A stretch of DNA of 64,000 nt, from positions 185,251,982 through 185,315,981 of the forward strand of contig CM061138.1 in assembly GCA_030789695.1 (NCBI GenBank), in the 5' to 3' direction. The translations under genes and the position numbers were made by a program. The notes under the pieces were generated by a model. That model had not been told where the DNA came from. It made no database searches and saw only the letters and a list, made by a program, of their open reading frames with translations. How positions within the stretch are numbered: the stretch's first letter is position 1; each line of letters starts with the position of its first letter. Of the stretch, positions 1-51,130 are shown in pieces. The stretch comes from Scilla litardierei. Lineage: Eukaryota; Streptophyta; Magnoliopsida; Asparagales; Asparagaceae.

Positions 1-429
1 CGGTGCGCGATTGAACGATGATGTTGATCCTAATGCTAGCTTCCCTAGGCTAGGGTTTGCAAGAGATTGGACCCGAACCTAGGATAGCTATAGACCGGCA
101 ACATCGCGAGAGCGTGAGCTTGGTTCTACATTCAGTTGCAACTAGTTCATCCAAAATCTTATTCTAGCAATTTTGATACCAATGAACCATATTTATGAAA
201 TACGGTGAGTAGCGGGAATTCCCCATTCCCTAGACGTTCTTTATTTGATTTGATATTTCAGTACTTTGTCTGACGATTGTGACAGGATCGCCAAAGGCAA
301 ATTTCTCTCTTCTTAAATAGCCAGGTTGATTAGAACAAGCACGGTCATTCGTCCTCCCTGTGTTCGATAACCCGCTCGCCGCTATACCGTGCGCTTGCGA
401 TAAAACTACAACCGTTCTTTGGGGTTACA
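1..429 (+). mobile_element. Athila-like element 1: 5' LTR remnant (U5 end)
   Basis: This stretch aligns by eye, with few differences, to the last ~430 bases of the LTR at 7992-9786 (shared block from about 9360: the Gln/Leu-rich non-coding text around the CCTAGG pairs, the GACCGGCAACA segment and the final run ahead of TACA). It therefore is the right end of the 5' LTR of the same element; the rest lies left of the window. It keeps one copy of the hairpin with the TTGCAAGAGATTGG loop (44-83). The LTR appears to end at TACA, 426-429. No primer-binding site follows: gag coding starts at once, so the PBS, leader and gag N-terminus are deleted. Confidence 0.8.
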
Positions 430-2696
430 TCGCGGAGCGACCACCCTCCAAGACGGTGAAGATTAGGAGTGCTCTCATGTCCTTCAAGCAAGGACCTCAA
501 GAGACACTCTACGAGGCATGGGAGCGCTTCAAAGACCTACAGCATCAGTGCCCCCACCATAGCATCGAAGATTGGGAGCTAGTCCATAGCTTCTACATTG
601 GTCTCCAACCGGGGACCAAGCAGATTATTGATGCCGCGGCAAATGGGGCCATCTTATCGAAGACTCCCGACGAAGCTACGGCCTTAATTGAGGAGATGGC
701 CTCGAACAATCAACAATGGGGCGACGAGCGAGGACACTCTTCGTCCTCCTTGAAGCCATCTAGCATCTATGAGGCCAAGGCCGTGGCGGAGCTTACCAAC
801 AAATTCGATTCTCTCCATAAGGTGGTGGAGAGACTGGAGAAATATATCACGGAGCCCCAAGGAGCCCCTTCCACATCCACACCAACAAGTCAAATGAGCG
901 ATTGGCAAGACCAATCCCAAGCTATGTATTTGGGAGGAGAACAAGGAGAGGGATCTTTGGAGCAAGTTCAATACGTCGCGGGGAACCAAGGATATTGGGC
1001 CAATCCAGCCACTAGAAACCATCCCGGTTTCTCCTATGCCAACAATGATGGAGCATTGAACCCCCCGCAACAACTACCTCACCAAGCTCGACCACCACCT
1101 CAACAACAATAACATTATCCACTGAGGGGGCCTCCGCAACAAAACTACCCACCGAGGCAACAAGTGGGACCCTATAGGCCACCCGGATACAATCATGGGT
1201 GGAGAAATCCAAACCCTCCACAAGCTCAACAACGTTCCGATTTTGAAGCTAGAGTGGAGGAGTTTATGGTCGAGCAGAAGAAGACTAATGCTTCCTTGAA
1301 GGCGAGCCAAGATTCCCTTGCAACGGTTGTAGGCCAAATCTCGGAACAACTTGCGTTGCTCAATCGAAATAGTCAACAGTTGCCGGCTCAACCCGAGCAA
1401 AATCCACGGGGCACCACCGGACATATCAACGCCGTGGTTGCAGTTACTACGAGAGGCGGGAAGGATACCACCCCCGTCATGATTCCAACCAAGGAGCCCG
1501 TGGTGGAGAGAGTAGAGCCAAGTGAGCCGGTCATTGAAGTTGAGAGAGAAAAAGAGCCGCAAGGGGAAGAAAAGTCCAGAGCTGAGCAGCTGATTGAAGA
1601 GAGGCGTTTTATGCCACCGATCCCATTCCCTCAGAGGCTAGCTAGATCAAAGATGGAGAAATGGCTAGCCAAGTTTCTCGAGTATTTGAGAGGGGTAAGC
1701 CTTAATATCCCCTTCCTCGAAGCTATCGTGGAAATCCCGACATACGCCAAGTTCCTAAAAGATTTGATTACGGGAAGAAAGAGGAAGGCGAAAATCATGC
1801 TCGTTGAGGAAGGGACTTGGTTCACCAAGAGAGAGAAGGAGCCCGCCAAATTCAAAGACCCGGGGAGTTTCCGAATTCCTTGCACCTTAGGCGGCGTCCC
1901 TCTACAAAAGGCATTAGTAGACTTAGGGGCTAGTGTTAGCCTCATGCCTCTCTCTATGTTCCGAAGGCTAAACACCGGCACAGAATTGAAGCCTACCGAC
2001 ATGCGGATACAACTAGCAGATGGTCGGATCACAAGGCCGGTAGGGATCGCAGAGGATATCCCGTTACAAGTCCTGGGACGCATATGTTTGCCTTGCAACT
2101 TTGTGATCATGGATGTCAAGGAGGAGGGCGATACGTCGCTAATACTTGGACGCCCGTTTCTCGCCACCGCCGGTGTCATTGTCGACGTACGTGAAGGGAC
2201 TCTAACATTGAACGTCGGCAACATTGAGGTGGAGCTTCATATACCCAAGGCAATGAAACACATGCCTTATCATGAGGAGCTGGATTATATGGACCTCCTC
2301 GACGAGGTCATTGAGGAGGCAATCCCCCATTCCATCGGCGCAATATTCGAGGATGACTTTGAGGAAGGCCCGGATTTAGGCCAAGAAGAAAAGATGGAGC
2401 ACTCCCCCGATCTCCCCGTAGAAATTGATGATGGCGACGCTGATGTCGCAAGAATACGAGAGCTCTGCAAGCTCTCAAAGATAAAGTCTCCGAAGAAAGC
2501 TCCGCCGTTACGAAAATCGGTGTCTCCGGTGAAGCCAAGGCCCGGAGCAAGCACTAGCTTGGGGGAGCCACCCCCCAACACTACCCAAGACGAAGGATCA
2601 CCGAGGAAGAACACGCCGCCACAAGATCCAAATCCAAGCGTTCTTCCCGATAGATTCGACGGGTGCATCTCATATGCACCCAATATCCCGCAATGA
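430..2696 (+). pseudogene. gag-pro: Athila-like gag-protease polyprotein (element 1), N-terminus missing
   Basis: Structural Gag plus aspartic protease of an Athila-lineage Ty3/gypsy element. The capsid-type gag domain is at the start (motifs TLYEAWERFKDLQ and FYIGLQPGTKQIIDAAANG, then SKTPDEATALIEEMASNN, all typical of Athila gag). A Pro/Gln-rich linker, a coiled-coil-like stretch and a Glu-rich stretch follow. The retropepsin domain has DLGAS at 1920-1934, where most retropepsins have D-S/T-G; Leu in this position is common in Athila proteases. The flap and ILGRPFLATA motif follow. One in-frame stop interrupts it (TAA 1110-1112, probably from CAA). The frame closes normally at 2696, and no RT, RNase H or integrase follows, so pol has been lost and the element was non-autonomous. 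The true start codon is deleted; the frame runs in from the LTR. Confidence 0.88.
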
Positions 2697-3028: not shown

Positions 3029-3390
3029 ACTCGGCCGAGTAGAATATCCACTCGGCCGAGTACATAAGTTCGTCCGCCCGAGCGGCACCCAAACGAGGGA
3101 AGTCTACTGTACCCAACTCTCTGTTTCTTTTCTTGATCTCGGTATAATTGCCACTCGGCCGAGTATATATCTTCACTCGGCCGAGTGAAACCGATACACT
3201 CCTAGGGCGAGTAATGCCAAGTAGCTTATGCCACTTGGCCGAGTGGACTTTCTCCACTCGGCCGAGGGTGGCAAAGCCACTCGGCCGAGTCGTAAGCGGG
3301 AAGGAATTTTCAAAAAAAAAATTTCGTTACGTTCACTCGGCCGAGCGACATGGTGACTCGGCCGAGTCGTAACTTTTCCTATATAAAGGG
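3029..3390 (+). promoter_or_regulatory. Internal promoter of element 1: CTCGGCCGAG palindrome cluster plus TATA box
   Basis: Eight exact copies of the palindrome CTCGGCCGAG (for example at 3030, 3051, 3154, 3176, 3257, 3280, 3336, 3357), most inside the longer ACTCGGCCGAGT, plus variants such as CTTGGCCGAG and the related GTCCGCCCGAG. They end 15 bases before a TATA box (TATAAA 3382-3387). The env-like ORF starts 540 bases downstream. The same palindrome is clustered in the U3 of this element's LTR. I infer a second promoter that makes a subgenomic RNA for the env-like ORF. An alternative is a relic LTR piece captured inside the element; I see no LTR ends here. Confidence 0.65.
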
Positions 3391-3926: not shown

Positions 3927-6028
3927 ATGCCGCCCCGGACACAGCCACGCTCCAGGAGAGCTTCTGCCAAGCGGAAGCGGCCGGATGAGCCCGGCCCCTC
4001 CCACGAGATGGAGGACTCTCCTCCACCTACACCACCTCACTCCGCACAGCCACAGCCTGCAGACCCCGTTCACCCCGCACAGCCACAGCCTGCAGTCCCC
4101 GTTCACCCTGCACATCCACTCCCTGCCGACCCACTGCCACCACCGGCTCCACTTGTCGGGCCGCTGGGGATTACGTTTCGAGATGACGCACACCGCGTCG
4201 TTTTTGAGTGCATTTCCCAGCGCTCGATTGTACCCTCCAGGTTCGCACACCTTGCAGACCTAGGACACCTGGGGGTACTTGAGGGGTTGCTCACGTTGTA
4301 TGACAACGTGGGTTGGCGAGATTTTTTCCAAGTATCGACGGACACCTTCATCCGTCCGACACTTGAGGTGCTGAGTTCTATTGCTCGGACCGACGATGGA
4401 TGCTCGTTTAGGTTTATGGACCGAGAGTGCTAGGTCACTCTCGGTATGATGAGAGCATTCTTCTCGTGGCCCGATATCCCCAGGGCCGACTGTGGTTACG
4501 CCCCCACTCACATCCCCCCCCGTCCTTCGATTCACACGCTTTCTGGGCCCAGATCACGGGTTTACCAGCTGCCTTTGACCCTAGTAGGGCCAAGGCCTCG
4601 GCCATCGTTCACCCCTGCCTCCGCATAGCTCAGCGCCTTATGGCGACTACTTTTTTGGCGAGGTATGAGCCTGGGACGATGTCCACACTGGAGCTTTATA
4701 TGCTCTATGCGATGACGCGCCCCAGAGTTCTAGCTAGGGAGAGTGACGAGCTGGTCCCCGCCGTCGTGATTGATATCGCGAGCTGTTTTTTGGACCGCAT
4801 CATCGTATCGATGGGCGCTCGCTCACCGATATGTTGCGGCAGTCTGATCACCCTGCTCGCCCTGATGACCGGCGAGGACCTTCCGACTGACCTGCGACGA
4901 GCCTCGGGCCCCACTTCACTGTCTATAGACGTCATGGCCTAGATGAAGATGCTTCGTCCGCACGGTCAGCGGCACTGGGTTTGGTTGCACGGTCCGTACG
5001 GTGCTGACTACATGATCCTTCCGAGCCCTGCTCGGACACACTTAGGACCAGCACACGACGACTGGCTTCCGGCGATGGATCTCCTGATCCCCGCCGCCTA
5101 CGTGCTTGAGGCTGAGGGAGCTGAGCCTGCACCACCTGCACACCCTACGCCCCTAGCTGACCCCGTGGCCCCTCAACCTGTCCCTGACACTTCTGCCGCT
5201 CCCGACACTTCTGTCCCCACCACCACTCCCACCACAACTGGCCCTCTGGCTGTTGAGCCCCTTTGCTCCGCACTACCCGAGCGCCCACCTACCTTTGTTG
5301 AGAGCGGCGAGCCTTCTTTCGTTGCTATCGTGGAGACCATGGCCAGTATGATCTCCGCTGGGATTTCACCCTTTGGACCCCACACTTCCTCCCCAGCGGT
5401 TGACGCTTTTGTCTCCACTGCAGCCGTTCTATCTGAGAGTGTCGTGACGTCTGTCCCCACTTCTGTGTCACTGGCCTCTCTTGCCGCCTCATCGCCACTT
5501 TTATATTCCACTTCCGCTGCTACTGCTTCCACCTCATACCAGCCTGCGTCCCAGCCTCGCACTGAGGCTGGGCACCCTCTAGTGAGCACAGCACCCGTAC
5601 GACCCCTGCCTGCTGTCCCGATCACCTACACCGCCCGTGTTAGACAGCCCCGACCAGCTCAGCCTAGACCTGTCCGTCCCTCCGCTCCACCACCCCCTGA
5701 CGCCGTAGTTCAGAGCGTTCGCGCTCTTGAGGGGGCGTTGAGTGGACTCCGTGGCGATTTTAGGGCCCTGTCTTCCACTGTCACTGCCATGCACCACCGC
5801 CTCGAGCTACTTCCCAGCATTCACTACTGTCTCACTCAGATTCTCGAGCGGCTTCCTCGCGTCCCTACCCTACCCACACCCACCCAGCAGGTACCCACCC
5901 CCACTCCTACACACACCCAGCCTGCATCCACGACCCTACCCACACCCACACCCACCCAGCAGACTATTCCCCAGCCACCACCACCACCTCCGCCTCAGGA
6001 CGGAGACGGCGCAGCACCACCCTCCTAG
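3927..6028 (+). pseudogene. Env-like / ATHILA-type ORF of element 1 (broken)
   Basis: Protein of the plant ATHILA ORF family, the extra ORF that sits downstream of pol in Athila elements and is sometimes called env-like; its function is unproven. It starts MPPRTQPRSRRASAKRK (basic, nuclear-signal-like), then a Pro-rich repeat region, then the conserved core (LYDNVGWRDFF, FRFMDREC, FWAQITGLPAAFDPSRAKASAIVHP, then LRIAQRLMATTFLARYEPG and ELYMLYAM), then a ~360-codon Pro/Thr/Ser-rich C-terminal part. It is broken by a stop at 4431-4433, a frameshift near 4520 and a stop at 4940-4942. I see no clear signal peptide or transmembrane segment in the readable frames. ATG 3927 was chosen because it opens the basic N-terminus after the internal promoter. 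Confidence 0.7.
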
Positions 6029-7991
6029 GCACCCTTGATGCAACTGATCTTTTTTGCCGTCATGCTGCCCATCTCTGCTTGGTCCTGATGAGTTTTGCCC
6101 ATCCACCCCTCCCCTCACTGTTTTTGGGTCCACATTTTGATCATATATATCTTTATCATTTTTGGGAGAGAGGGAGAGACTTTTTGGTGTGACACTCTTA
6201 TATCTGATTCACTCCTATATCTGCATGCATCATGTCCGCATCATATTTTCATTTTATTATTTTTATTTCTTTTTCATCATGCATGCATCCTCACCTACCC
6301 CTCACATTACACGTCTCTCGGTGTGCCACACTTCGCACATTGAGGACACTGTGCACTTTAGCTTGGGGGAGTGAGTTCTCACGCTTTTCGATTTACCACC
6401 TTTATTTTTAGTTTTTCACGCCATTTTTAGTCATTTGCGCTCATTTTCATCACTTTTCTTTTTTTCTTTTACCATGCATCACGTTTTTCTCGTTTTCTTC
6501 GTGTGCCGCATTGTAAATAGTTTTGTTTTTCTTTTTTATCTTTATTTCTTTCATCTCATGCTAGAGATGACTTTTCAGTGATGATGATGATGTGGAGTTA
6601 GCTTTCTCTATATGCATGCTATATTTGTCATGTCTTAGCTTTTATTTCTGATATCATACGCTATGATCTGCCTTGCATTTAGAGATAGTAACCCACACTT
6701 TTTCCGTATGAAAATGGATGAAATTCTATTATTAGCTGAGTCTGAATATTCATATGTATGCTATCGTAGAAAACACACCAAGATTCACGCATTGAATGCT
6801 TATATCTGGAGTACCGTTTTCTTTTCCTATATCACTTCTACTTGCATGACTTGTACACTTCACTTCAGGATGATTGAATGATGTTAGCTATGATAAATCT
6901 GGATTAGTTTTGCTTTTTTGTGATCGAAACGGAGTAGATTAGATTACCCTGCTGAAGTTGTCATGCACGTCCCATAGAGTGAACTGAGAGATACATTTAT
7001 TTCTTTCTCCACATATCTTGAACATTAATTCTCTATTTTAAAATCATTGGTGAATCTCCCCTTAGCGATTCTAATATTTGGCACTTCCCCAGTTATTAAA
7101 TTCCTAGCTCCAAATTTCCCAAAACCAAAAAGAAAAAGAAAAATTCTTGTATATCCTTCTCTCTCTTTTGATTTGGGATCATTTGTGTATATATGTTATT
7201 GTTAAAAAAAGAGAGAAAAGAAAGAAAAGAAAAGAAAATGATTTGAGAAAAAGAAAAGAAAAGAGAAAAGAATCTCAATAAACGATCCCATCTCATATAC
7301 TCTCTCTTTCTTCCCTCTTTTTGTTTTTTATTTTTATTTTCTTTTGCATTTGGAGCTTCAAAAGAAATGGGGAATGTAAATACAGTTTTGTATATGCCAC
7401 CACGCTTATAGATAAGCTTGGGGGAGAGAATCCAATGATGTGTGAGAGAGAGACTACTTGACGGTGCATGACAACCTAGGCTAAGTAATATTCTATACTC
7501 AGTGAGATTGTTTTAGCTTCACGAAATCCAGAAATCTACGCCTAGCACTCATTTCATGAAATCCACGCTTTTCTATTCTTTCTATTCTATTGTGTGATAT
7601 TCTTATACTCCTCATAGAAAGCATTCAATTGAAAAGTGTGTGATCTGTGATATTGTATACCGCTTTAGATGATTCAGACAATGTTAATCTTAGAATTATT
7701 CCATTTTTCATGCTATATCAATATTCTTGGGTTTTCTATCTCTATTTGCACCATTATACTATGATATTGAAATAAAAATCTTTGACATGTGTTCTACATT
7801 CGACGCATGCTATATGAGTAAGCAAAACCCACGTCCTGAGAAAAATGATCTAGCAGCTTCCCTCTTCGCTTTCTTCTTTCTTCTTCGTTTTTCGCTTTCC
7901 GTTTTTCCATCGTTTTCATTTTCTAAATCCACCGGGTTCGCCTTTTACTTATCTTCCTCGAGGACGAGTAAGAGGTAAGCTTGGGGGATTT
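6029..7991 (+). other. 3' UTR of element 1 with PPT-like repeats and a purine tract
   Basis: Non-coding, T-rich stretch with no credible gene. It holds the polypurine-type motif AGCTTGGGGGA at about 6360, 7408 and finally 7977-7990, where it abuts the 3' LTR and is the expected plus-strand primer. A fourth copy lies in the end of the gag-protease ORF (about 2556-2566). A GA-rich tract at 7201-7275 lies about 720 bases before the LTR; element 2 has a similar tract in the same relative place (13858-13890). A conserved CATTGAGGACA block precedes the first PPT-like copy, as in element 2. Confidence 0.65.
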
Positions 7992-8285
7992 TGATCACTC
8001 CGTATTTTACACCTTTTTCCCGCATGTTTGCATGCCATTTTGATCGCTCAAATCATGTTTTTCACGATTTATCGACAATATTGCGATACTTTTCACGATT
8101 TGTTGTTTTTATCGTATTTCAGGAGATTTGGAGCGATTTGGAGTGATTCTGAGATACACCCACTCCGGAGTGCCACCGACGACTTCCCAGAGGGGTATTT
8201 TGCTATTGGAGAGGAGCGGAAGAAGAAAGAACGTCGTAGGAGCGACGAGGAGGCAAGAACGATCAGATAGAGCATTTTTAGCATC

Positions 8286-8746
8286 TCACTCGGCCGAGTG
8301 AAGGAGTCACTCGGCCGAGAATCGAGACCCCGCTCGGCCGGCCAGATCGGACGCGCTCCAAGCAGCATATCAGCGTGCACTCGGCCGATCATCAGAAGCT
8401 GACTTGGCCGAGTGACGAAATCCCGTCCGCCCGAGTGGCACTCAGGCGACGCCCATCAAAAAGTCCCGACTTACTGTTTTTCGTCAGTCTGAGCATCAGA
8501 AGCCCCACTCGGCCGAGTGGTAATCGCCGTCCGCCCGAGTGAACAAAGCCCATCGGCCGAGTGACCCCCGAAGTGGAGACCCCCGAGACCCCGGACTTAT
8601 TGTAAATTCTTAGGGTTTCTCACTTGGCCGAGCGACTTTTGTCACTCGGCCGAGTGAGCCGAGCGCCTGTAGCGGAAAACACGATTTTGAAGAGGCGCAG
8701 GGGCATTTTGGTCACGGATTTTTGGGCAGTTTTAGGGGGTATTTAA
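8286..8746 (+). promoter_or_regulatory. U3 promoter of element 1 LTR with palindrome cluster
   Basis: At least four exact CTCGGCCGAG palindromes and about five one- or two-base variants (CTTGGCCGAG, ATCGGCCGAG, CTCGGCCGAT and the GTCCGCCCGAGTG type) in about 375 bases, followed by TATTTAA. This is the same motif set as in the internal promoter at 3029-3390, although the sequence between the motifs is not the same. This fits repeated binding sites for one dimeric factor, or DNA hairpins; the sequence cannot tell which. Confidence 0.65.
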
Positions 8747-9133
8747 CCCCAGATTCTAACCTAGTTTAGAGAGCTTTTCTATTGCTTTTGGCAGCCTTTT
8801 TAGATTAGACTTTTTAGGGTAAAAATCTTGTGATTGGAGAGGATAGAAAACGTGTTATTTTGTTGGGTTCTTTGGAAGCTACATTGGTTTGTCTCCCTCT
8901 TCACTAAAAACTCTATTTTTATTGCTAATTTTAGTATTGCCATGAATTCTATTGCTATTTCTATTGATTATTCTTCCATTTGCAATATGATTTGTGAGTA
9001 GTCTTAACGTCTTAGGGCGTGGGGATGAACCCTACGAGCACAATTCCCGATTTGTGACGATTTGGTAGAACTATTGCTAGAATTGATTAGGGTTAGTTTG
9101 GGATTGATATATTACGGATAGCTAGGTGTTCAT

Positions 9134-9436
9134 ATCGATTGGGATTTGCAAGAGATTGGATCCCAATTCGATAGGAAACCCTAGAAATCCGAATTGGGTT
9201 GAAATTGAGTTTCCTTAGTATCGGTTTGCAAGAGATTGGACCGATACTAGGATTCTCGGTTGCAATTCTATACCGATACCCGTTTGCAAGAGATTGGACG
9301 GGTAGGAACTATCCCAACCTAGGTCGTAGCCCGAGTTTGCACGAGAGTGGGCTCGGGATGCAATTGAACGATGACGTTGATCCTAATGCTAGCTTGCCTA
9401 GGTGAGGGTTTGCAAGAGATTGGAACCGAGCCTAGG
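9134..9436 (+). repeat. Array of five hairpins with one shared loop in the LTR leader of element 1
   Basis: Five stem-loops share the 14-nt loop TTGCAAGAGATTGG (fourth copy TTGCACGAGAGTGG) but have different stems. HP1 9138-9167: ATTGGGAT/ATCCCAAT, extended by ATCG/CGAT. HP2 9216-9249: TAGTATCGGT/ACCGATACTA. HP3 9277-9304: TACCCGT/ACGGGTA. HP4 9330-9357: CCCGAG/CTCGGG plus a T-G pair. HP5 9397-9436: an outer CCTAGG/CCTAGG helix and a short inner stem; its 5' LTR counterpart is at 44-83 with inner GGGT/ACCC. They lie downstream of the TATA box, so they should be in the 5' leader of the genomic RNA. Confidence 0.85.
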
Positions 9437-9786
9437 TTTGCTATAGACCGGCAACAGCGCGAGAGCGTGAGCTAGGTTTTACATTCAGTTGCAACTAGTT
9501 CACCTGACATTCTACCCTTGCAATTGTGAAACTGATGAATCACAATGACGAGATACGGTGAGTAGCGGGGATTCCCTATTCCCTAGGCGTCTTTATTTGA
9601 TTTTATATCTCTTTACATTGTTTGACGATTGTGACAACATCGCCGAAAGGCAATTTCCTACTTTTCTGTCCCTATAACCAGGTTGTTCGGAGAAGGTACT
9701 ATCATACGTCCTCCCTGAGTTCGATACCCGCTCACCGCTACACCGTACGCTTGCGGTAAAACTACACGGTCGCTCTTTAGGGTGTA

Positions 9787-10066
9787 CGCCCGGGCGCGAT
9801 CAGTTGCTCTGACAAAGAGCAAAGGAAAAAAGCCTTTGGAGCTCACAGCTGATGAAGTCCGAGTTCTGAGAAGAGTGGCGATTGATGCCAACTTGAGGGA
9901 AAAGCCCCGGACATCACCAACGGGAGAGTCGTTGAGACCATTCACCTGTCACCGCTGTCAACAACAAGAGCCCCTGCCCCAACGACTGAGAGGACGCCGA
10001 TCGTGGATCATCACCCATACAAACCCCCATGAATATCATATACGGGAGTCGAGCAACCGACTATAA
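9787..10066 (+). pseudogene. Unrecognised coding fragment at the truncated left end of element 2
   Basis: An open frame runs from the element 1 LTR edge to a stop at 10064-10066 (reads ...LTKSKGKKPLELTADEVRVLRR...). I do not recognise a family. By position it corresponds to the end of the gag-protease/pol region of element 2, because the AGGCAA hairpin follows 13 bases later, as it follows gag-protease in element 1. The left part of element 2, including its 5' LTR, is absent here. Either it lies left of the window beyond element 1 (element 1 inserted into it) or it is deleted. Confidence 0.35.
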
Positions 10067-25868: not shown

Positions 25869-28424
25869 TGTAACGAATGGTTTTCATGTATCTGGTTTTA
25901 TTATATAATATTATATGTTTTGGTGGATTTTCTCCTTATGTGTGATTTTCGTCTCCGTAGTTTTCATTTTCGTTCATTTCGTCGTGATTCTCTAGATTCT
26001 TCCGTCGGTCAGCATGTTCGAAGTAAGTCATTCGTGACGGGCTTCATAACGTCGATATCTTAGAGTTAGAACGAGCCTAGGAGACTTAGGAAACCATCCC
26101 GGAGCCCCGCGCTCCATATCGGAACTTTTGGTGCTCATTAGCCGGTGTAAGAAGGGGCACCGACCGACTAGATGACGATCCAGTCGGTCGGAAAACCTTC
26201 TTGAACCGACTAGTGAGCTTTGTTAAATGTTCAGGAGTTACTGTTTGTCGTTAGTCGGTCTAGGAACGTTGGTTGACCGACTAGGTTGCAAACTAGTCGG
26301 ACAGCAATGCTTCTTTAACCGACTAACTCGTTTACTAATTTTTGGTATCAGTGTTGTTCATTCTTAGTCGGTCTAAGTTCATCTTTCGATCGACTAGTTG
26401 TTAAACTAGTCGGTTAAGTTTTGTACTCAGACCGACTAATTCTTAGTTCTTCTGTACAGTCTAGTTACTGTTTACTCTTAGTCGGTCCAAGAACGTTCAT
26501 CGACCGACTAGATGTCAAACTAGTCGGTCAGTAATTGTTCTTTGACCGACTAAATCTAAATCCTAATTTTCGTCTGGGTTACTGTTTACACTTAGTCGGT
26601 CTGCGTTGGTCAACCGACCGACTAGTTTCCAAACTAGTCGGTCAGTGGTTGTTCTTTGACCAACTAAACAGTACAGGAAACTCTAGTTTTGCCCTAGCCA
26701 CCACCAAACTCTATAAATACCCCTCCAAGCGTTTTCTTCTTCTCCCTCATGACCTAAAACCCTAATTTCTCCTCCATTGAGCCCCCATCTTCCTCAAACC
26801 ATTAAACCTTCATCCCAAGCTCATCCTTCATCATCCAAACCCTCCCTTGTCACAACCCACCTTCCATCTTCCCCAAACCTTCATCAAAACCCCCAAAATC
26901 CACATCAAAACCCATTTCTCCAGATTTTTCCCTCATTTCCAGATCTGAGCCGGATCGTTCTTCCGTTGCCGTGGTTGCTCGACATCGTTCCTTCGCTTCT
27001 TCACGGTAATACTCGATAGCATAACCCACATTGACATTGTGAAACCCTAATAAAATGGATTATTAGATGATTAGGGTTCTAATAAGAAATCACTTTAGAA
27101 TCATTGTGCTAATAGTTATTTTGCCATAACAGTGATCCATTCCATAGTTAGCTTGTGTGATGATCTTCATTGCTCGTCAATCCCGGTATCAGGCAAGTGA
27201 AACTTGCATCTCTTGATTTGGGCCATGTCTTAGGCCATTACCTTGCTTTAGCGTAAAAGAGACTAGACGGTGAAAGGATAGCCGTCTAGACGCCATTGAC
27301 CTAGCTTGACAACGAAGCTTGGTCCGTCACCCTCATCATGCTTGTATGTCACGTTTACTTTCCCTTAACGGTACGCGTATTAACTGTTCATGTCATTCAT
27401 GCATCCTTAACTGCTGTTGCATTTTAACTGCTATGTTTAAATTGAATTAACGGTACGTGAATATGTTCATGTCATTGCATTTTAACTGCCATGTTTAATT
27501 TGAATTAACGGTACGCGAATATCTGCTCATGTCATTGCATGCTTGAACACTCATCGTGATTGAGTAGCTTCGCTACATACTTGTACTATTTGTTCCAGCT
27601 AGGCACCCGTTCTGCAGGCATAATCCTATGCCAAATACACTTTCTGGCTCGTGTTCCAGAAGACGAGCTCAACACAGCCTGCGGGCGATAGGGCACTCGT
27701 TGAGTGATCCCTTGTACTTGATACTTGCACACAGCTTGCGGGCAATAGGGCACTCGTTGAGTGATCCCTTGTACTTGTACTTGTCACTTGACATTACATG
27801 TCACAACAACCACTTGCTACTTGTACTTTACTTTTCTTATTACCGCCTTACTTTACTTGCCATGCACCATACTTTAACTGCTAGGTTGCTAGTTTACCTT
27901 TCTTTCCGTTTCCTTGCACAAGTCTTTCGACTTGCTGACATGTGCCCCTTTTCTCTTTTGGGTGACACATGTTAGAGCCCGAGCCTGAGTCGCTTGCTGA
28001 GGACGTGGTGTTCGCTGATGCTGAGTCAGAACCCGCGTTGATCGAGGACTTCATTGACACTGGGGATCAGTCTTAGTGTCTTCGTTTAGCTTCTTTTGTT
28101 AGACTTCTTAGTTGTCGGTGCGTGGCACCTAGTTTGATACTCTGTTATGTTTGTGTTGTTTTTGCTTGGCCTTGTTCTGGGCCTTAGACTCTTCCCCGTT
28201 AGCCTGGTGGCTTTTCTGCGATGTTGAATGTTTTGTGGACAAACTTTGGGATTGGCTATTTCATATCCGTCTCATTTTATTATTATTATTGTTGTTGTTC
28301 CTTTTGCGTTTACATGGACCTGCTTATACTAAATTGACGCTTATCAGGCGTGCAGCTTCACAGCTCCACGTTTGAGCGGACCTTCTCACGTCTCGCCTCC
28401 ATTTTAGGGAAGCGGGACGTGACA
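25869..28424 (+). mobile_element. Family 3 LTR (2,556 bp): 3' LTR of A and 5' LTR of B
   Basis: Starts TGTAACGAATGG after the PPT and ends GGGACGTGACA. It is flanked on both sides by internal family 3 sequence, so it is shared between two units. U3 has four tandem units of about 115 bp carrying inverted TAGTCGGT/ACCGACTA pairs (26160-26670), then a TATA box (CTATAAATACC, 26711-26721). A purine-poor CT/CA-rich leader follows. Confidence 0.92.
26160..26725 (+). promoter_or_regulatory. Family 3 U3 enhancer-like array (ACCGACTA / TAGTCGGT) and TATA box
   Basis: About 17 copies of ACCGAC or its complement GTCGGT in 540 bases. The repeating unit is TTAGTCGGT ... ACCGACTAG ... CTAGTCGGT ... ACCGACTAA, separated by GTTACTGTTTAC-type spacers. 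Many inner pairs form a perfect 10-bp stem (GACCGACTAG/CTAGTCGGTC around an 8-nt loop). ACCGAC is the DRE/CRT core (RCCGAC) bound by plant DREB/CBF factors, so cold- or drought-responsive transcription is a reasonable inference. Matching arrays are at 33540-34060, 36100-36500, 43200-43580 and, on the minus strand, 63000-63410. Confidence 0.65.
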
Positions 28425-33250: not shown

Positions 33251-35811
33251 TGTAACGAATGGTTTTCATGTATCTGGTTTTATTATATAATATTATATGT
33301 TTTGGTGGATTTTCTCCTTATGTGTGATTTTCGTCTCCGTAGTTTTCATTTTCGTTCATTTCGTCGTGATTCTCTAGATTCTTCCGTCGGTCGGCGTGTT
33401 CGAAGTAAGTCATTCGTGACGGGCTTCATAACGTCGATATCTTAGAGTTAGAACGAGCCTAGGAGACTTAGGAAACCATCCCGGAGCCCCGCGCTCCATC
33501 TCGGAACTTTTGGTGCTCATTAGCCGGTGTAAGAAGGGGCACCGACCGACTAGATGACGATCCAGTCGGTCGGAAAACCTTCTTGAACCGACTAGTGAGC
33601 TTTTTTAAATGTTCAGGAGTTACTGTTTGTCGTTAGTCGGTCTAGGAACGTTGGTTGACCGACTAGGTTGCAAACTAGTCGGACAGCAATGCTTCTTTAA
33701 TCGACTAACTCGTTTACTAATTTTTGGTATCAGTGCTGTTCATTCTTAGTCGGTCTAAGTTCATCTTTCGACCGACTAGTTGTTAAACTAGTCGGTTAAG
33801 TTTTGTACTCAGACCGACTAATTCTTAGTTCTTCTGTACAGTCTAGTTACTGTTTACTCTTAGTCGGTCCAAGAACGTTCATCGACCGACTAGATGTCAA
33901 ACTAGTCGGTCAGTAATTGTTCTTTGACCGACTAAATCTAAATCCTAATTTTCATCTGGGTTACTGTTTACACTTAGTCGGTCTGCGTTGGTCAACCGAC
34001 CGACTAGTTCCCAAACTAGTCGGTCAGTGGTTGTTCTTTGACCGACTAAACAGTACAGGAAACCCTAGTTTTGCCCTAGCCGCCACCAAACTCTATAAAT
34101 ACCCCTCCAAACGTTTTCTTCTCCTCCCTCATGACCTAAAACCCTAATTTCTCCTCCATTGAGCCCCCATCTTCCTCAAACCATTAAACCTTCATCCCAA
34201 GCTCATCCTTCATCATCCAAACCCTCCCTTGTCACAACCCACCTTCCATCTTCCCCAAACCTTCATCAAAACCCCCAAAATCCACATCAAAACCCATTTC
34301 TCCAGATTTTTCCCTCATTTCCAGATCTGAGCCGGATCGTTCTTCCGTTGCCGTGGTTGCTCGGCATCGTTCCTTCGCTTCTTCACGGTAATACTCGATT
34401 CCTTTAGTTTTAGCATAACCCACATTGACATTGTGAAACCCTAATAAAATGGATTATTAGATGATTAGGGTTCTAATAAGAAATCAATTTAGAATCATTG
34501 TGCTAATAGTTGTTTTGCCATAACAGTGATCCATTCCATAGTTAGCTTGTGTGACGATCTTCATTGCTCGTCAATCCCGGTATCAGGCAAGTGAAACTTG
34601 CATCTCTTGATTTGGGCCATGTCTTAGGCCATTACCTTGCTTTAGCGTAAAAGAGACTAGACGGTGAAAGGATAGCCGTCTAGACGCCATTGACCTAGCT
34701 TGACAGCGAAGCTTGGTCCGTCACCCTCATCATGCTTGTATGTCACGTTTACTTTCCCTTAACGGTAAGCGTATTAACTGTTCATGTCATTCATGCATCC
34801 TTAACTGCTGTTGCATTTTAACTGCCATGTTTAATTTGAATTAACGGTACGCGAATATGTTCATGTCATTGCATTTTAACTGCCATGTTTAATTTGAATT
34901 AACGGTACGTGAATATCTGCTCATGTCATTGCATGCTTGAACACTCATCGTGATTACGTAGCTTCGCTACATACTTGTACTATTTGTTCCAGCTAGGCAC
35001 CCGTTCTGCGGGCACAATCCTATGCCAAATACACTTTCTGGCTCGTGTTCCAGAAGACAAGCTCAACACAGCCTGCGGGCGATAGGGCACTCGTTGAGTG
35101 ATCCCTTGTACTTGATACTTCCACACAGCTTGTAGGCAATAGGGCACTCGTTGAGTGATCCCTTGTACTTGTACTTGTCACTTGACATTACATGTCACAA
35201 CAACCACTTGCTACTTGTACTTTACTTTTCTTGTTACCGCCTTACTTTACTTGCCATGCACCATACTTTAACTGCTAGGTTGCTAGTTTACCTTTCTTTC
35301 CGTTTCCTTGCACAAGTCTTTCGACTTGCTGACATGTGCCCCTTTTCTCTTTTGGGTGACACATGTTAGAGCCCGAGCCTGAGTCGCTTGCTGAGGACGT
35401 GGTGTTCGTTGACGCTGAGTCAGAACCCGCGTTGATCGAGGACTTCATTGACACTGGAGATCAGTCTTAGTGTCTTCGTTTAGCTTCTTTTCTTAGACTT
35501 CTTAGTTGTCGGTGCGTGGCACCTAGTTTGATACTCTGTTATGTTTGTGTTGTTTTTGCTTAGCCTTGTTCTGGGCCGTAGACTCTTCCCTGTTAGCCTG
35601 GTGGCTTTTCTGCGATGTTGAATGTTTTGTGGACAAACTTTGGGATTGGCTATTTCATATCCGTCTCATTTTATTATTATTATTTTTGTTGTTCCTTTTG
35701 TGTTTACAGGGACCTGCTTATACTAAATTGACGCTTATCAGGCGTGCAGCTTCACAGCTCCACGTTTGAGCGGACCTTCTCACGTCTCGCCTCCATTTTA
35801 GGGAAGCGGGG
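33251..35811 (+). mobile_element. Family 3 copy B: 3' LTR, interrupted by copy C
   Basis: Starts TGTAACGAATGG after the PPT AAGTTGGGGAGGA and is nearly identical to 25869-28424. It breaks off at ...GGGAAGCGGGG (35811), where copy C begins. Its last seven bases CGTGACA are found at 45258-45264 beyond copy C. U3 has four ~115-bp units; TATA box CTATAAATACC about 34093-34103. Confidence 0.93.
35807..35811 (+). repeat. Target-site duplication of copy C, left (CGGGG)
   Basis: CGGGG here and at 45253-45257 flank copy C exactly. Confidence 0.92.
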
Positions 35812-38156
35812 TGTAACGACTGGTTTTTCATGTATGGATTTTATTATATATATAATATTAATTGTTGCTTTCCCTTCTTTGTGATTTCCATTTCCGTCTC
35901 CGTAGTTTTCATTTTCGTTCGTATCGTCGTGATTCTCTAGATTCTTCCGTCGGTCGGCGTGTTTGAAGTAAGTCATTCGTGACGGGCTTCATAACGTCGA
36001 TATCTTAGAGTTAGAACGAGCCTAGGAGACTTAGGAAACCATCCTGGAGCCCCGCGCTCCATATCGGAACTTTTGGTGCTCATTAGCCGGTGTAAGAAGG
36101 GGCACCGACCGACTAGATGACGATCCAGTCGGTCGGAAAACCTTCTTGAACCGACTAGTGAGCTTTGTTAAATGTTCAGGAGTTACTGTTTGTCGTTAGT
36201 CGGTCTAAGAATGTTGGTTGACCGACTAGGTTGCAAACTAGTCGGTCGGCAATGCTTCTCTAACCGACTAACTCATTAACTATTTTTGACACTAGTTACT
36301 GTTTACTCTTAGTCGGTCTAAGAACGTTCATCGACCGACTAGATGTCGAACTAGTCGGTCAGTAGTTGTTCTTTGACCGACTAAATCTAGATCCTAATTT
36401 TCGTCTGGGTTACTGTTTACACTTAGTCGGTCTGCTTTGGTCAACCGACCGACTAGATGTCAAAGTAGTCGGTCAGTGGTTGTTCTTTGACCGACTAAAC
36501 AGTACAGGAAACCCTAGTTTTGCCCTAGCCGCCACCAAACTCTATAAATACCCCTCCAAACGTTTTCTTCTTCTCCCTCACGACCTAAAACCCTAATTTC
36601 TCCCCCATTGAGCCCCCATCTTCCCCAAATCCTCAAACCTTCATTCCAAGCTCATCCTCCATCATCCAAACCCTCCCTTGTCACAACCCACCTTCCATCT
36701 TTCCCAAACCTTCATCAAACCCCCAAAATCCACATCCAAACCCATTTCTCCAGATTTTTCCCTCATTTCCAGATCTGAGCCGGATCGTTCTTCCGTTGCC
36801 GTGGTTGCTCGGCATCGCTCATCCGCCTCTTCACGGTAATACTCGATTCCTTTAGTTTTAGCATAACCCCCATTGACATTGTGAAACCCTAATAAAATGC
36901 ATTATTAGAAAGTTAGGATTCTAATAAGAAATCGATTTAGAATCATTGTTCTAATGATTGTTTTGCCATAACAGCGATCTATTCCGTAGTTAGCTTGTGT
37001 GATGATCTTCATTGCTCGTCAACCCCGGTATCAGGCAAGTGAAACTTGCATCTCTTGATTTGGGCCATGTCTTAGGCCATTTCCTTGCTTTAGCGTAAAA
37101 GAGACTAGGCGGTGAAAGGATAGCCGTCTAGACGCCATTGACCCAGCTTGACAACGAAGCTTGGTCCGTCACCTTCATCATGCTTGTATGTCACGTTTAA
37201 ATTCAATTAACGGTACGAAAATATCTGTTCATATTATTGCATAGTGATTATTCATCGTGATTGCGTAGCACACGCTACAATAGTATGGTCCTGGCTCGTG
37301 TTCCAGAAGCGAGCCCTGTAGTTGGAAACCCCAACGCTCGATACACATGGGTGGGGTAAGAGATAAGCGGACTGAGCCTGAGTTGGCCTGATCCGCCACT
37401 CCGGCCAGCAGGCGAATTCTCTAGTGCACAAGTGATTGATAGTGATAGAGATAAGCGGCCTGAGCCACGAGCTGGCCAGCAGGTGGACTCTCGATGCACT
37501 AAGTGATAAACAGTGATAAGTGATAAGTGATTAGTGAATTGGTAGCTACGCTACATCGTGCGTGCATGTCTCTATTTTAAACTGCTGCATCAACTAAACT
37601 GTCATGTCATTGTTTAATATTATAAGTGTTAGGTTGTTAGTTACTTTCAGTTTCCTTGCTCAAGTCTTTTAGACTTGCTGACATGTGCCCCCTTTCTCTT
37701 TTGGGTGACACGTGTTAGACCCCGAGCCAGAGTTACTTGCTGAGGGTGAGGTGTTTGCGGACGCCGAGCTTGCGCCCGTGTTGGACGAGGACTTCGTAGA
37801 CACTGGAGATCAGTCTTAGTGTCTACGTCTAGTTTTGTTAGATTGCTTAGGTTGTCGATGCGTGGCACCTAGTTGATACTCTGTTATGTTTGTATTTTTG
37901 TTTGGCCTTGTTCTGGGCCTTTAGACTCTTTCTTTTAGCCTGGTGGCTCTTCTGTGATGTTGAATATTTTGTGGACAAACTGTGGGATTGGTATTTTATA
38001 TCAGTCTCATATTATTATTATTGTTGTTGTTTCGTTTGCAATTACAGGGACCTGCTTATACTAAATTTACGCTTATCGGGCATGCAGCTTCACAGCTCCA
38101 CGCTTGAGCGGACCTTCTCACGTCTCGCCTCCATTTTAGGGAAGCGGGACGTGACA
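35812..38156 (+). mobile_element. Copy C 5' LTR
   Basis: TGTAACGACTGG at the left end, GGGACGTGACA at the right. U3 palindrome units 36100-36500, TATA box CTATAAATACC about 36541-36551, CT-rich leader after it. 2,345 bp. Confidence 0.93.
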
Positions 38157-42907: not shown

Positions 42908-45252
42908 TGTAACGACTGGTTTTTCATGTATGGATTTTATTATATATATAATATTAATTGTTGCTTTCCCTTCTTTGTGATTTCCATTTCCGTCTCCGTA
43001 GTTTTCATTTTCGTTCGTTTCGTCGTGATTCTCTAGATTCTTCCGTCGGTCGGCGTGTTTGAAGTAAGTCATTCGTGACGGGCTTCATAACGCCGATATC
43101 TTAGAGTTAGAACGAGCCTAGGAGACTTAGGAAACCATCCCGGAGCTTCGCGCTCCATTTCGGAACTTTTGGTGCTCATTAGCCGGTATAAGAAGGGGCA
43201 CCGACCGACTAGATGACAATCCAGTCGGTCGGAAAACCTTCTTGAACCGACTAGTGAGCTTTGTTAAATGTTCAGGAGTTACTGTTTGTCGTTAGTCGGT
43301 CTAAGAACGTTGGTTAACCGACTAGGTTGCAAACTAGTCGGTCGGCAATGCTTCTCTAACCGACTAACTCATTAACTATTTTTGACACTAGTTACTGTTT
43401 ACTCTTAGTCGGTCTAAGAACGTTCATCGACCGACTAGATGTCGAACTAGTCGGTCAGTAGTTGTTCTTTGACTGACTAAATCTAGATCCTAATTTTCAT
43501 CTCGGTTACTGTTTACACTTAGTCGGTCTGCGTTGGTCAACCGACCGACTAGATGTCAAACTAGTCGGTCAATGGTTGTTCTTTGACCGACTAAACAGTA
43601 CAGGAAACCCTAGTTTTGCCCTAGCCGCCACCAAACTCTATAAATACCTCTCCAAACGTTTTCTTCTTCTCCCTCACGACCTAAAACCCTAATTTCTCCC
43701 CCATTGAGCCCCCATCTTCCCCAAATCCTCAAACCTTCATTCCAAGCTCATCCTCCATCATCCAAACCCTCCCTTGTCACAACCCACCTTCCATCTTCCC
43801 CAAACCTTCATCAAACCCCCAAAATCCACATCCAAACCCATTTCTCCAGATTTTTCCCTCATTTCCAGATCTGAGCCGGATCGTTCTTCCGTTGCCGTGG
43901 TTGCTCGGCATCACTCATCCGCCTCTTCACGGTAATACTCGATTCCTTTAGTTTTAGCATAACCCCCATTGACATTGTGAAACCCTAATAAAATGGATTA
44001 TTAGAAAGTTAGGATTCTAATAAGAAATCGATTTAGAATCATTGTTCTAATGATTGTTTTGGCATAACAGCGATCTATTCCGTAGTTAGCTTGTGTGACG
44101 ATCTTCATTGCTCGTCAACCCCGGTATTAGGCAAGTGAAACTTGCATCTCTTGATTTGGGCCATGTCTTAGGCCATTTCCTTACTTTAGCGTAAAAGAGA
44201 CTAGGCGGTGAAAGGATAGCCGTCTAGACGTCATTGACCCAGCTTGACAACGAAGCTTGGTCCGTCACCTTCATCATGCTTGTATGTCACGTTTAAATTC
44301 AATTAACGGTACGCAAATATCTGTTCATATTATTGCATAGTGATTATTCATCGTGATTGCGTAGCACATGCTACAATAGTATGGTCCTGGCTCGTGTTCC
44401 AGAAGCGAGCCCTGTAGTTGGAAACCCCAACGCTCGATACACATGGGTGGGGTAAGAGATAAGCGGACTGAGCCTGAGTTGGCCTGATCCGCCACTCCGG
44501 CCAGCAGGCGAATTCTCTAGTGCACAAGTGATTGATAGTGATAGAGATAAGCGGCCTGAGCCACGAGCTGGCCAGCAGGTGGACTCTCGATGCACTAAGT
44601 GATAAACAGTGATAAGTGATTAGTGATTAGTGAATTGGTAGCTACGCTACATCGTGCGTGCTTGTCTCTATTTTAAACTGCTGCATCAACTAAACTGTCA
44701 TGTCATTGTTTAATATTATAAGTGTTAGGTTGTTAGTTACTTTCAGTTTCCTTGCTCAAGTCTTTTAGACTTGCTGACATGTGCCCCCTTTCTCTTTTGG
44801 GTGACACATGTTAGACCCCGAGCCAGAGTTACTTGCTGAGGGTGAGGTGTTTGCGGACGCCGAGCTTGCGTCCGTGTTGGACGAGGACTTCGTAGACACT
44901 GGAGATCAGTCTTAGTGTCTACGTCTAGTTTTGTTAGATTGCTTAGGTTGTCGGTGCGTGGCACCTAGTTGATACTCTGTTATGTTTGTATTTTTGTTTG
45001 GCCTTGTTCTGGACCTTTAGACTCTTTCTTTTAGCCTGGTGGCTTTTCTGTGATGTTGAATATTTTGTGGACAAACTGTGGGATTGGTATTTCATATCCG
45101 TCTCATATTATTATTATTGTTGTTGTTTCGTTTGCAATTACAGGGACCTGCTTATACTAAATTTACGCTTATCGGGCGTGCAACTTCACAGCTCCACGCT
45201 TGAGCGGACCTTCTCACGTCTCGCCTCCATTTTAGGGAAGCGGGGCGTGACA
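42908..45252 (+). mobile_element. Copy C 3' LTR
   Basis: Same length as the 5' LTR (2,345 bp), TGTAACGACTGG to GGGGCGTGACA. Follows the PPT AAGTTGGGGAGGA (42895-42907). U3 palindromes 43200-43580, TATA box about 43637-43647. Confidence 0.93.
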
Positions 45253-48269: not shown

Positions 48270-51130
48270 AGGACCCAAAACCCCACTTAGTGGTCGGCCG
48301 TAAGCCGAAGGGACCATGTCCCTCGTAACCAAACGACACTCGTTGTCAGTCGTAAGCCGACGGGCTAACACCCTCGCAACTGAATGACACGAATTAGTCA
48401 TCGGCCGTAAGCCGAAGGGACCATGTCCCTTGCAACCGAACGACACTCGTCGTCAGCCATAAGCCGAGGGGCTAACCCCTCGCCACTGAACGACGCAATT
48501 TCTGTCGTCGGCCGTACGCCGAAGGGACCATGTCCCTTGCAACCGAACGACATTCATCGTCAGCCGTAAGCCGAGGGGCCAACCCCATGCCACTGAACGA
48601 CGCAACTTTCGTCGTCGACCGTAAGCCGAAGGGACTATGTCCCTCGCAACTGACCAACATTTGTCGTCAGCCGTAAGCCGAGGGACCAACCCTTCGCCAT
48701 TGAATGACGCAACATCCGTCGTCAGTCGTAAGCGACCAACCCCTCGCCACTGAGCGACTCCACTTCCGTCGTCAGTCGTAAGCCAAAGGGGCCATGTATC
48801 ACGCAACCGAACGACATTCGTCGTCATTAGTAAGCCGAGGGGCTAACCCCTCGCCACTGAATGACGCAACTTCCATCGTCGGCCGTAAGCCGAAGGGACC
48901 ATGTCCCTCGCAACCGACCGGCATTCGTCGTCAGCCGTAAGCCGAGGGGCCAACCCCTTGCCACTGAACGATGCAACATCCGTCGTCAGCCGTAAGCCGA
49001 GGGATCAAACCCTCGCCACTGAGTGACTCCACTTCGGTCGTCGGCCGTAAGCCGAAGGGGCCATGTCCCTTGCGACCGAACGACATTCGTCGTCAGCAAT
49101 AAGCTAAGGGGCCAACCCCTCGCCACTGAACGACACAACATCCGTCGTTAGCCGTAAGATGAGGAACCAACCCCTCGCCACTGAGTGACTCCACTTCTGT
49201 CGTTCGTCGTAAGCTGAAGGGGACATGTCCCTTGCAACCGAACGACATTCGTCGTCAGTAGTAAGCTGAGGGGCCAACCCCTCGCCACTGAACGATGCTA
49301 CTTCCATCGTCAGCTGTAAAATGAATGGACCATGTCCCTCGCAACCGAACGACGACATCCGTCGCCAGCCGTAAGCCGAGGGACCAACCCTTCGCCACTG
49401 AGTGACTCCACTTCTGTCGTCGGTCGTAAGCCGAAGGGGCCATGTCCCTTGCAACCGAACTACATTCGTCGTCAGCAGTAAGTCGAGGGGCCAACCCCTC
49501 GCCATTGAACGACCTACTTTCATCGTCGACTGTAAGACGAAGGGACCATGCCTCTCGTAATAGAACGACAACATCAGTCGCCAACTGTAAGCCGAGGGAC
49601 CAACCCCTTGCCACTGAGCGACTCAACTTCCGTCGTCGGTCGTAAGCCGAAGGGGCCATGTCCCTCGCAACCGAACGACATTCATCGTCAGCGGTAAGCC
49701 AAGGGGCCAACCCCTTGCGACTGAACGACGCAACATCCGTCGGCAGTCGTAAGCTGAGGGACCAACCGCTCGCCATTGAGCGACTCCACTTCCATCGTCG
49801 GCCGTAAGCCGAATGGGCCATGTCCCTCGCAACCGAACAACATTCGTCGTCAGCAGTAAGCCAAGGGGCTAACCCCTCGCCACTGAACGATGCTAATTCC
49901 ATCATCAACCGTAAGACGAAGGGACCTTGTCCCTCACAACTGAACAACAACATCCATCGTTAACCGTAAGCCGAGTGGCCAACTCCTCGCCACTGAACGA
50001 CGCAACTTAGTTGTCGACCGTAAGCCGAAGGGACCACGTCCCTCACAACCAAACGAAATTCGTCGTCGGCCGTAGGCTAAGGGGCCAACCCCTCGTCACT
50101 GAATGACGCAACTTAGTCGTCGGTCGTAAGCCGAAGGGACCATCTCCCTCACAACCGAATGACATTCGTCGTCGGTCGTAAGCCGAGGGGGTAACCCCTA
50201 GCCACTGGACGACCATATTCATCGTCAGCCGTAAGCCGATGGGCCACCCCCTTACGATTGAACGACCCAACTCTGTCATCTGTAAGCCGAAGGGGACGCA
50301 CCCTCGCAACTGAACGAACCTACTTGGTTGTCGGTCGTAAGCCGAATGGGCCTCGTCCCTTGCAACCGAATGATATTCGTCATCAGCCGTAATCTGAGGG
50401 GCCAACCCCTCACCACTGAACGACACAACTTCCGTCGTCGGTCGTAAGCCGAAGGGACCATATCCCTCGCAACCGACCGACACCCGTCGAAGGGCCAACC
50501 CCTCGCAACTGAGCAACTCAACTTCCGTCGTCGGCCGTAAGCCGAAGGGACCATATCCCTCACAACCGACCGACATTCGTCGTCGACTGTAAGCCGAAGG
50601 GACTATATCCCTTGCAACCGACCGACACCCGTCGAGGGGCCAACCCCTCGCAACCGACTGACATTCGTCGTCGGCCGTAACCCAAAGGGACCATATCCCT
50701 CGCAACCGATCGACACCCGTCGAGGGTCCAACCCCTCGCAACTGAGAGACTCAACTTCCGGCGTTGGCCGTAAGCCAAAGGGATCATGTCCCGTGCAACC
50801 GACCGACACCCGTCATCGGCCGTAAGTCGAAGGGACCATGTCCCTCGCAATCGCACGAGTCTCCTTGGTCGTCAGCAGTAAGCTGAGGGGCCAACCCCTC
50901 GACACTGAACGAGATGACTTCGTCGTTGGTCGTAAGCTGAAGGGGCCACACCCCTCGCAGCCAAACGATTCTTCAACATCGTCAGCCGTAAGCCAAGGGG
51001 CCAACCCCTCTACCACTGAACGACATCCGTCGTCAGCCATAAGCCGAGGGGCCAACCCCTCGCCACTGAACGACATTCGTCGACGGTAGTAAATCGAAGG
51101 GGCCATACCCTTCGCTATCGAACTACATTT
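48270..51130 (+). repeat. Minisatellite, about 50 units of about 54 bp, with hairpin in each unit
   Basis: Units share the frame GTCGTCGGCCGTAAGCCGA ... CGCAACCGAACGAC. Two types mostly alternate: one with AAGGGACCATGTCCCT (inverted repeat GGGAC/GTCCC) and one with GAGGGGCCAACCCCTC (inverted repeat GAGGGG/CCCCTC). The stems change together and the inner arms stay complementary. Long minus-strand reading frames here are repeat translations. The array ends about 90 bases before the PPT of a Tat-type 3' LTR, the usual place of tandem repeats in Tat/Ogre elements. Confidence 0.9.

Follow-up and report, generated by a model that had tools for sequence, protein, structure and literature searches.

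To our knowledge, hardly anything is known of how plant LTR retrotransposons select their own RNA. An LTR of Scilla litardierei raises the question in concrete form, in that five consecutive hairpins within it display one and the same 14-nt tip on five stems of unrelated sequence. The LTR lies in a stretch of 64,000 nt (GenBank assembly GCA_030789695.1, contig CM061138.1, positions 185,251,982-185,315,981, forward strand), the whole of which is referred to here as the window. An earlier note on this DNA had pointed to five copies of the motif, each with flanks complementary to one another and unrelated to those of the other copies, and had taken stems that differ while staying paired as a sign of selection on an RNA structure. 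What, then, has kept the tips alike and the stems paired, and what might such an array do?

In this study, we examine the array in the window and in related copies throughout the host genome. The pairing of the stems is compared with shifted partners and with a tree-aware null, the forms of the tip are counted genome-wide, and the candidate roles of the array are weighed against these data.

Materials and Methods

All array copies analyzed come from the one host genome (3.68 Gb) and share common ancestry. Sixty-seven loci plus the window were fed to array recovery, in which a tip with at most four mismatches was counted as a hairpin; apart from the window and one of eight random 10-kb stretches (L164), all loci came from exact-motif lists. 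Four loci yielded no array chain: L143, which has five motifs and one shortened spacing, L184, in which H3 and H4 are fused, L186, which is an unrelated repeat, and L199. The first copy at L183, which has no H5, was left out of the pair counts. Of the 66 rows of these counts, the A-U tip list supplied 31, the C-G list 13 and the one-sided lists 19; two came from the random stretch, and the last is the window. Two more arrays had too little flank and were omitted from the tree and alignment, which have 64 rows. The 19 one-sided rows bias the apical pair counts and were left out of a 46-row set, most rows of which were still picked by the exact paired motif.

For the tree-aware null, a tree was made from the array flanks and substitutions were re-dealt along its branches. 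Correction for choice among pairs used the level that contains the best pair of 95% of the null sets (0.921). Genome-wide tip counts cover both strands.

Results

An Athila-like element carries the array in its 3′ LTR. Comparison of 5′ and 3′ LTRs, in which the window copy was set against three related elements whose two LTRs match over about 1.82 kb, placed the array-bearing 3′ LTR at 7992-9802 (+), a length of about 1.81 kb bounded by TGATC...GATCA. The array occupies the region approximately 1.15-1.45 kb into this LTR, some 400 nt downstream of a TATA-like box (TATTTAA, 8740-8746, +). The position downstream of the TATA box given in the earlier note agrees with this; its placement of the array in the leader of the genomic RNA depends on the RNA start, which we infer to be about 30 bases downstream of TATTTAA.

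Two ORFs at 441-2696 (+) represent gag and part of the protease, with Pfam matches to PF03732 (Retrotrans_gag) and PF13650 (aspartyl protease), and a piece at 4412-4942 (+) matches the ATHILA ORF-1 family (PF03078, 26.7 bits against a cut-off of 20.2), this match being partial (model positions 170-226 of 458). We call the element Athila-like because of the PF03078 match together with the Retrotrans_gag protein; the window ORFs scanned against Pfam, a subset, contained no reverse transcriptase. In three related copies the 5′ LTR is followed by TGGCGCCGTTGCCGGGGA, a putative primer binding site that would match tRNA-Asp, an Athila-lineage trait. It is absent from the window element, which is broken, with the end of the 5′ LTR, the primer site and the start of gag partly missing. 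The two LTRs of this element are 82-85% alike in matched blocks and carry different forms of H4, and for these reasons the element may have arisen by recombination between two others. A CCHC motif was absent from the gag stretches read, and the precomputed PF00098 annotation, presumably the zinc knuckle, was present on 0 of 63 gag homologues; a knuckle therefore seems unavailable for RNA choice. Cuscuta, Humulus, Aristolochia and Silene are among the named sources of gag hits. The window's end is also the contig's end and may adjoin a chromosome or assembly end.

Five hairpins share one tip. In the window TTGCAAGAGATTGG occurs at 9146, 9226, 9284 and 9410, and TTGCACGAGAGTGG at 9337. The flanking arms pair in all five cases, in agreement with the earlier description, and the hairpins, all on the + strand, extend over 9134-9172 (H1, tip 9146-9159), 9213-9252 (H2, tip 9226-9239), 9277-9304 (H3, tip 9284-9297), 9323-9364 (H4, which has the C-G form of the tip, at 9337-9350) and 9396-9437 (H5, tip 9410-9423). 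By motif and folding, the H5 of the 5′ LTR remnant is at 43-84 (+), with its tip at 57-70. The remnant had been thought to keep only this last hairpin, which proved to be an effect of the window edge, as all five hairpins are found in 421 bases around that edge, with H1-H4 at or upstream of the window start. Among the sampled loci 67 arrays were recovered, 66 of them with all five hairpins, and the spacings between hairpins were nearly fixed at 80, 57-59, 53-54 and 71-73 nt. At L183 (748-1375) the front of the array is present twice through a local duplication of 352 bases; array number can therefore vary.

When 9120-9450 was folded, a check close to the fold of 9100-9450 that the earlier note had proposed, the energy was -127.6 kcal/mol (z -6.90) and none of 100 shuffles folded as well. 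The antisense strand also folded better than its own shuffles (z -5.17), since inverted repeats necessarily fold on both strands. Folding of the individual hairpins is less uniform: RNAfold prefers another register for the window H4 by 1.1 kcal/mol, the five hairpins appear together in the single best 360-nt fold of no more than 21 of the 66 arrays, and H1 through H5 are present in that fold in 61, 61, 49, 62 and 43 arrays, respectively.

A chance origin of the hairpins was rejected on the basis of the fold z-score and a control on motif occurrences. In IMG/VR viral contigs and the first eight own-genome loci, 17 of 140 occurrences had at least four adjoining Watson-Crick pairs, and all 17 were from own-genome loci, where they represent overlapping stretches of three arrays. 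An 18-base motif gave one bacterial match in prokaryote contigs and none in viral contigs, a result that is uninformative on other plants because the collections hold prokaryotes and viruses; no gag relatives were found in the viral contigs. At the Rfam gathering threshold, the array had no match in any family, ribozyme families included, and the sole match in the window was snoR71 (RF00097) at 459-565 (-), antisense within the Athila-type gag. The snoR71 family may contain retrotransposon sequence.

The window also holds other repeats. A large tandem repeat of about 40 units of about 54 bp, many with a palindrome like GGGGTTGGCCCC, lies at 48293-51063 (-), and L186 looks like another copy of it. 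Kinship with the array was considered and rejected, as the motif matches at 48.3-51.1 kb belong to this separate repeat and its palindromes. Palindromes like CACTCGGCCGAGTG are repeated at 8280-8660, in the U3 of the LTR, and at 3039-3197, in the interior. Five places (26386-26668, 33736-34050, 36180-36499, 43277-43595 and 62996-63413) have repeats about 114 bp long that contain CCGACTAG/CTAGTCGG palindromes.

The tip is a structure of its own. The 14 nt had been described as an invariant loop. They are indeed nearly fixed, but the loop is not open: RNAfold predicts a U1·G14 wobble, bulged U2 and G3, an inner stem of C4-G13, A5-U12 and A6-U11 (CAA/UUG), and a GAGA tetraloop inside it. The one copy noted to differ at two positions does so, and its two changes amount to a single compensatory pair, the apical A6-U11 of the other tips being replaced on both sides by C-G in H4 (CAC/GUG).

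Genome-wide, there are 167,774 A-U tips (read-backwards control, 5) and 32,129 C-G tips. Tips with a one-sided transversion number 247 (C·U) and 304 (A·G) and look like scattered decay, the double change being common; tips with the single changes number 450 (G·U) and 221 (A·C). A G-C apical pair was counted 23 times against 4 in the read-backwards control, which is the level of chance. As this pair was not adopted, either pairing is not the sole constraint or the path to it was never taken. Other GNRA tips total 936, in six sequences; the tip has therefore been kept as GAGA and not as any stable tetraloop. Across the 320 hairpins of the 64 aligned copies, every tip position except 6 and 11 is kept in at least 96.9%, a figure that somewhat overstates conservation because most copies were picked through the exact motif.

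The stems differ and remain paired. In distinct hairpins, the core stem cells comprised 1781 Watson-Crick pairs, 243 G·U, 35 A·C and 57 others, i.e. 95.65% standard pairs, and the related LTR copies thus do not show the noncomplementary stems that would have spoken against an RNA structure. When the 3′ partner was slid by 1-3 bases, 25-45% of pairs were standard. Unlike arms within a copy paired in 55.4% of cells, as compared to the 95.65% for an arm's own partner, and simple tandem duplication was rejected on this comparison. Two forms of the H3 stem are paired throughout, ACCCGT/ACGGGT (17,862 copies) and ATTCGT/ACGAAT (9,344); mixed versions were found 10 times with two C·A clashes and 49 times with two U·G pairs. 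Arms swapped between two subfamilies in one direction paired in 72.2% (H3), 83.1% (H2) and 86.5% (H4) of cells. In the other direction H2-H4 arms paired in at least 93%, and the arms of H1 and H5, which paired in 93-97% both ways, are interchangeable between the two subfamilies.

Pairing and covariation also exceeded the tree-aware null. With 64 rows and 500 null sets, standard pairs reached 96.8% (null mean 79.8%, maximum 85.3%) and summed covariation 5.84 (mean 1.99, maximum 5.00). With 46 rows and 1000 sets, the values were 97.3% (null maximum 86.7%) and 6.26 (maximum 4.42), and double-change events numbered 10 (mean 1.35, maximum 6). These figures come from one genome with shared ancestry and 10 double-change events only, and the core pairs, partly chosen from the same sequences, are somewhat favored by that choice. 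The note's expectation that covariation would exceed a null holds for the array as a whole and unevenly for its hairpins, with clear support for H2, H3 and H4, support at the apical pair only for H5, and weak support for H1. Pair 4 of H2 (T-A/C-G) was reached by 0 of 500 null sets with 64 rows and 0 of 1000 with 46. In the 46-row set, H2 pair 4, H3 pairs 4 and 5 and H4 pair 6 were each reached by 0-2 of 1000 null sets; for the apical pair the number was 9 of 1000 in H4 and 5 of 1000 in H5. After correction for choice among pairs, with 64 rows, H2 pair 4 and H3 pair 4 alone pass and the others are nominal. H1 depends mainly on G·U changes, and its covariation, with values reached by 27 and 70 of 1000 null sets, is not convincing by itself; folding and pair counts define this hairpin.

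The pair counts point to selection on the sense RNA. In register, G·U pairs outnumber A·C by 250 to 36, a ratio of 6.9. Shifted partners give ratios of 1.1-2.8 and unlike arms one of 1.95, which implies that base composition explains only part of the excess. The excess of G·U in the stems, along with that in the tips, indicates selection on the sense RNA. In each of the 66 arrays the sense strand had the lower summed fold energy (-91.6 versus -63.7 kcal/mol), which proves little alone, because sense was lower in 15 of 17 LTR windows overall, including most windows outside the array.

Per site, the two main subfamilies differed by 0.051 in the tip, 0.193 in the stem and 0.270 in the spacer, compared to 0.461 in the 300 bases upstream of the array and 0.412 downstream. 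Within the LTR part examined, conservation is highest in the stretch that contains the array, and within the array it is highest in the tip. Taken together, we regard it as virtually certain that a near-invariant structured tip on five unrelated stems has been conserved as RNA structure.

The array is present in elements without detectable gag. L164 includes one LTR completely and a second in part, both of them with five hairpins. In its interior of 3,989 bases, tblastn (E 1e-3) matched neither gag nor protease nor the ATHILA ORF, and tblastx found only tiny patches of 12-35 aa. The elements of L214-L216 also carry the array, which in L216 is seen only as motif matches, and their partial interiors of 2.9 kb each gave no tblastn match to gag, protease or ATHILA. 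As a control, the gag query matched the L192 and window interiors, and it gave no match in the first 2 kb of L196, a long element. The gag-less call refers to these three queries, which a highly diverged gag could escape. An ORF without a Pfam family occurs in the L164 interior (7144-8844, -) and in L214-L216. Its L164 and L216 versions share 85% identity over 198 aa, and with a pN/pS of 0.36 between two copies the ORF seems to be under selection, so that the elements are apparently gag-less and not noncoding.

Discussion

Five fixed tips, on stems that changed and yet stayed paired, suggest a docking site for a protein. The tip would be the binding site for one protein and the stems would merely present it, the five copies allowing multivalent binding. 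Recognition of the tip by a protein, still putative, seems to us quite likely. The protein would most likely be the family's own Gag, or a partner protein, and would pick out the genomic RNA for packaging; elements without a recognizable gag would then be packaged in trans; the presence of the array in apparently gag-less relatives likewise suggests a protein acting in trans. As found for packaging signals, the array is a structured RNA conserved by compensatory change, in what would be the leader from the RNA start placed above. A multivalent protein-docking signal, probably for packaging, is the best explanation of these sequence data, and we lean toward it modestly; the packaging role taken by itself stands about evenly balanced.

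The main rival is translation control, by which the array and a short upstream ORF would help ribosomes to cross an ATG-rich leader through shunting, reinitiation or internal entry, the tip recruiting a translation factor. A long leader with many ATGs (7-19 per copy in the aligned part) needs some device of this kind, and an ORF of 10 codons plus stop precedes the array (9025-9057, +), with an ATG found in 61 of the 64 aligned copies and a length of 10 codons in 54 of those 61. The short elements keep an ORF, and a role in translation is therefore compatible with them too. However, shunting requires a stable stem and not five copies of a fixed tip, and the upstream ORF sits at the margin of a block that is conserved as a whole, with its stop approximately 65-75 nt upstream of H1. 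In the plant pararetrovirus design, the distance from stop to stem is shorter. We consider translation control unlikely.

A host RNA-binding protein might instead use the tips for nuclear export, stability or localization of the RNA. The fixed tip and the retention of the array in an element without recognizable gag would both agree with this idea, which we view as rather doubtful. Dimerization through loop-loop kissing, one of the roles first suggested for the array, has lost ground. The palindrome UUGCAA in most tips is self-complementary, as kissing would require, but it is not conserved, since the 32,129 C-G tips carry UUGCAC, in which the palindrome is broken and the inner stem kept; dimerization by this means is improbable, and packaging and translation remain as candidates from the earlier suggestions. 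Least probable is a feature of the DNA or an artefact, i.e. inverted repeats made by duplication or sites for DNA proteins with no RNA role, for although the L183 duplication, the palindromic repeats common in the window and the antisense fold would suit it, the G·U to A·C ratio in register and the 450 to 221 excess in the tips form a strand-specific RNA signature.

The packaging interpretation has analogues in known systems, several of which are cited here from excerpts of the papers. GACG tetraloops of gammaretroviruses are involved in packaging (PMC516450). Like the array, the gammaretrovirus packaging hairpins, such as the double hairpin of spleen necrosis virus and those of MLV, have a common tetraloop and lie in the 5′ leader; the array differs in its five hairpins, its GAGA tetraloop, its conserved bulge and inner stem, its position inside the LTR and the putative nature of its binding. 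For packaging, the Gag of MMTV binds an apical loop of purines in the 5′ leader (PMC8096270); this is one loop of nine purines as opposed to five structured tips. Ty1 Gag, which has no zinc finger, uses a basic C-terminal part to bind RNA (PMC4974528); in that excerpt no array of repeated tips was seen for Ty1 or Ty3. Retrozymes are nonautonomous plant LTR elements whose structured RNA includes hammerhead ribozymes (PMC4918200); the window, in contrast, has no ribozyme family at the Rfam gathering score. The barley retrotransposons BARE1 and BARE2 are of the Copia type. Without a Gag of its own, BARE2 is packaged in trans and is said to keep packaging and dimerization signals (PMC3735527); the main text of that paper mentions neither "hairpin" nor "stem". 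The closest analogues are thus packaging signals, and in none of them, as far as the excerpts extend, is there a 5-fold array inside an LTR.

The exact motif string was absent from the literature searched, and no array of this kind was described among the matches listed, subscription journals being outside the search. The excerpt of one match (PMC10418216) uses "hairpin" for synthetic RNAi constructs. According to an excerpt of PMC3601003, earlier motif models could not accommodate the LTRs of plant Metaviridae because their lengths vary too much.

We put forward, tentatively, an Athila packaging code in which a 5-fold GAGA-capped bulged hairpin would be read by a knuckle-less Gag and used in trans; this fuller proposal is plausible rather than probable. 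Its position inside the LTR would mean that reverse transcription copies the signal to both ends of the provirus. The many copies of the array can serve directly for covariation analysis of an RNA family unmatched in Rfam. With about 200,000 copies in one genome, the near-fixed tip is a concrete and testable candidate for the RNA side of recognition in a plant LTR retrotransposon, and the array could explain how nonautonomous partners use the Gag of others. If the packaging code is true, autonomous elements and their gag-less partners would share one signal in trans.
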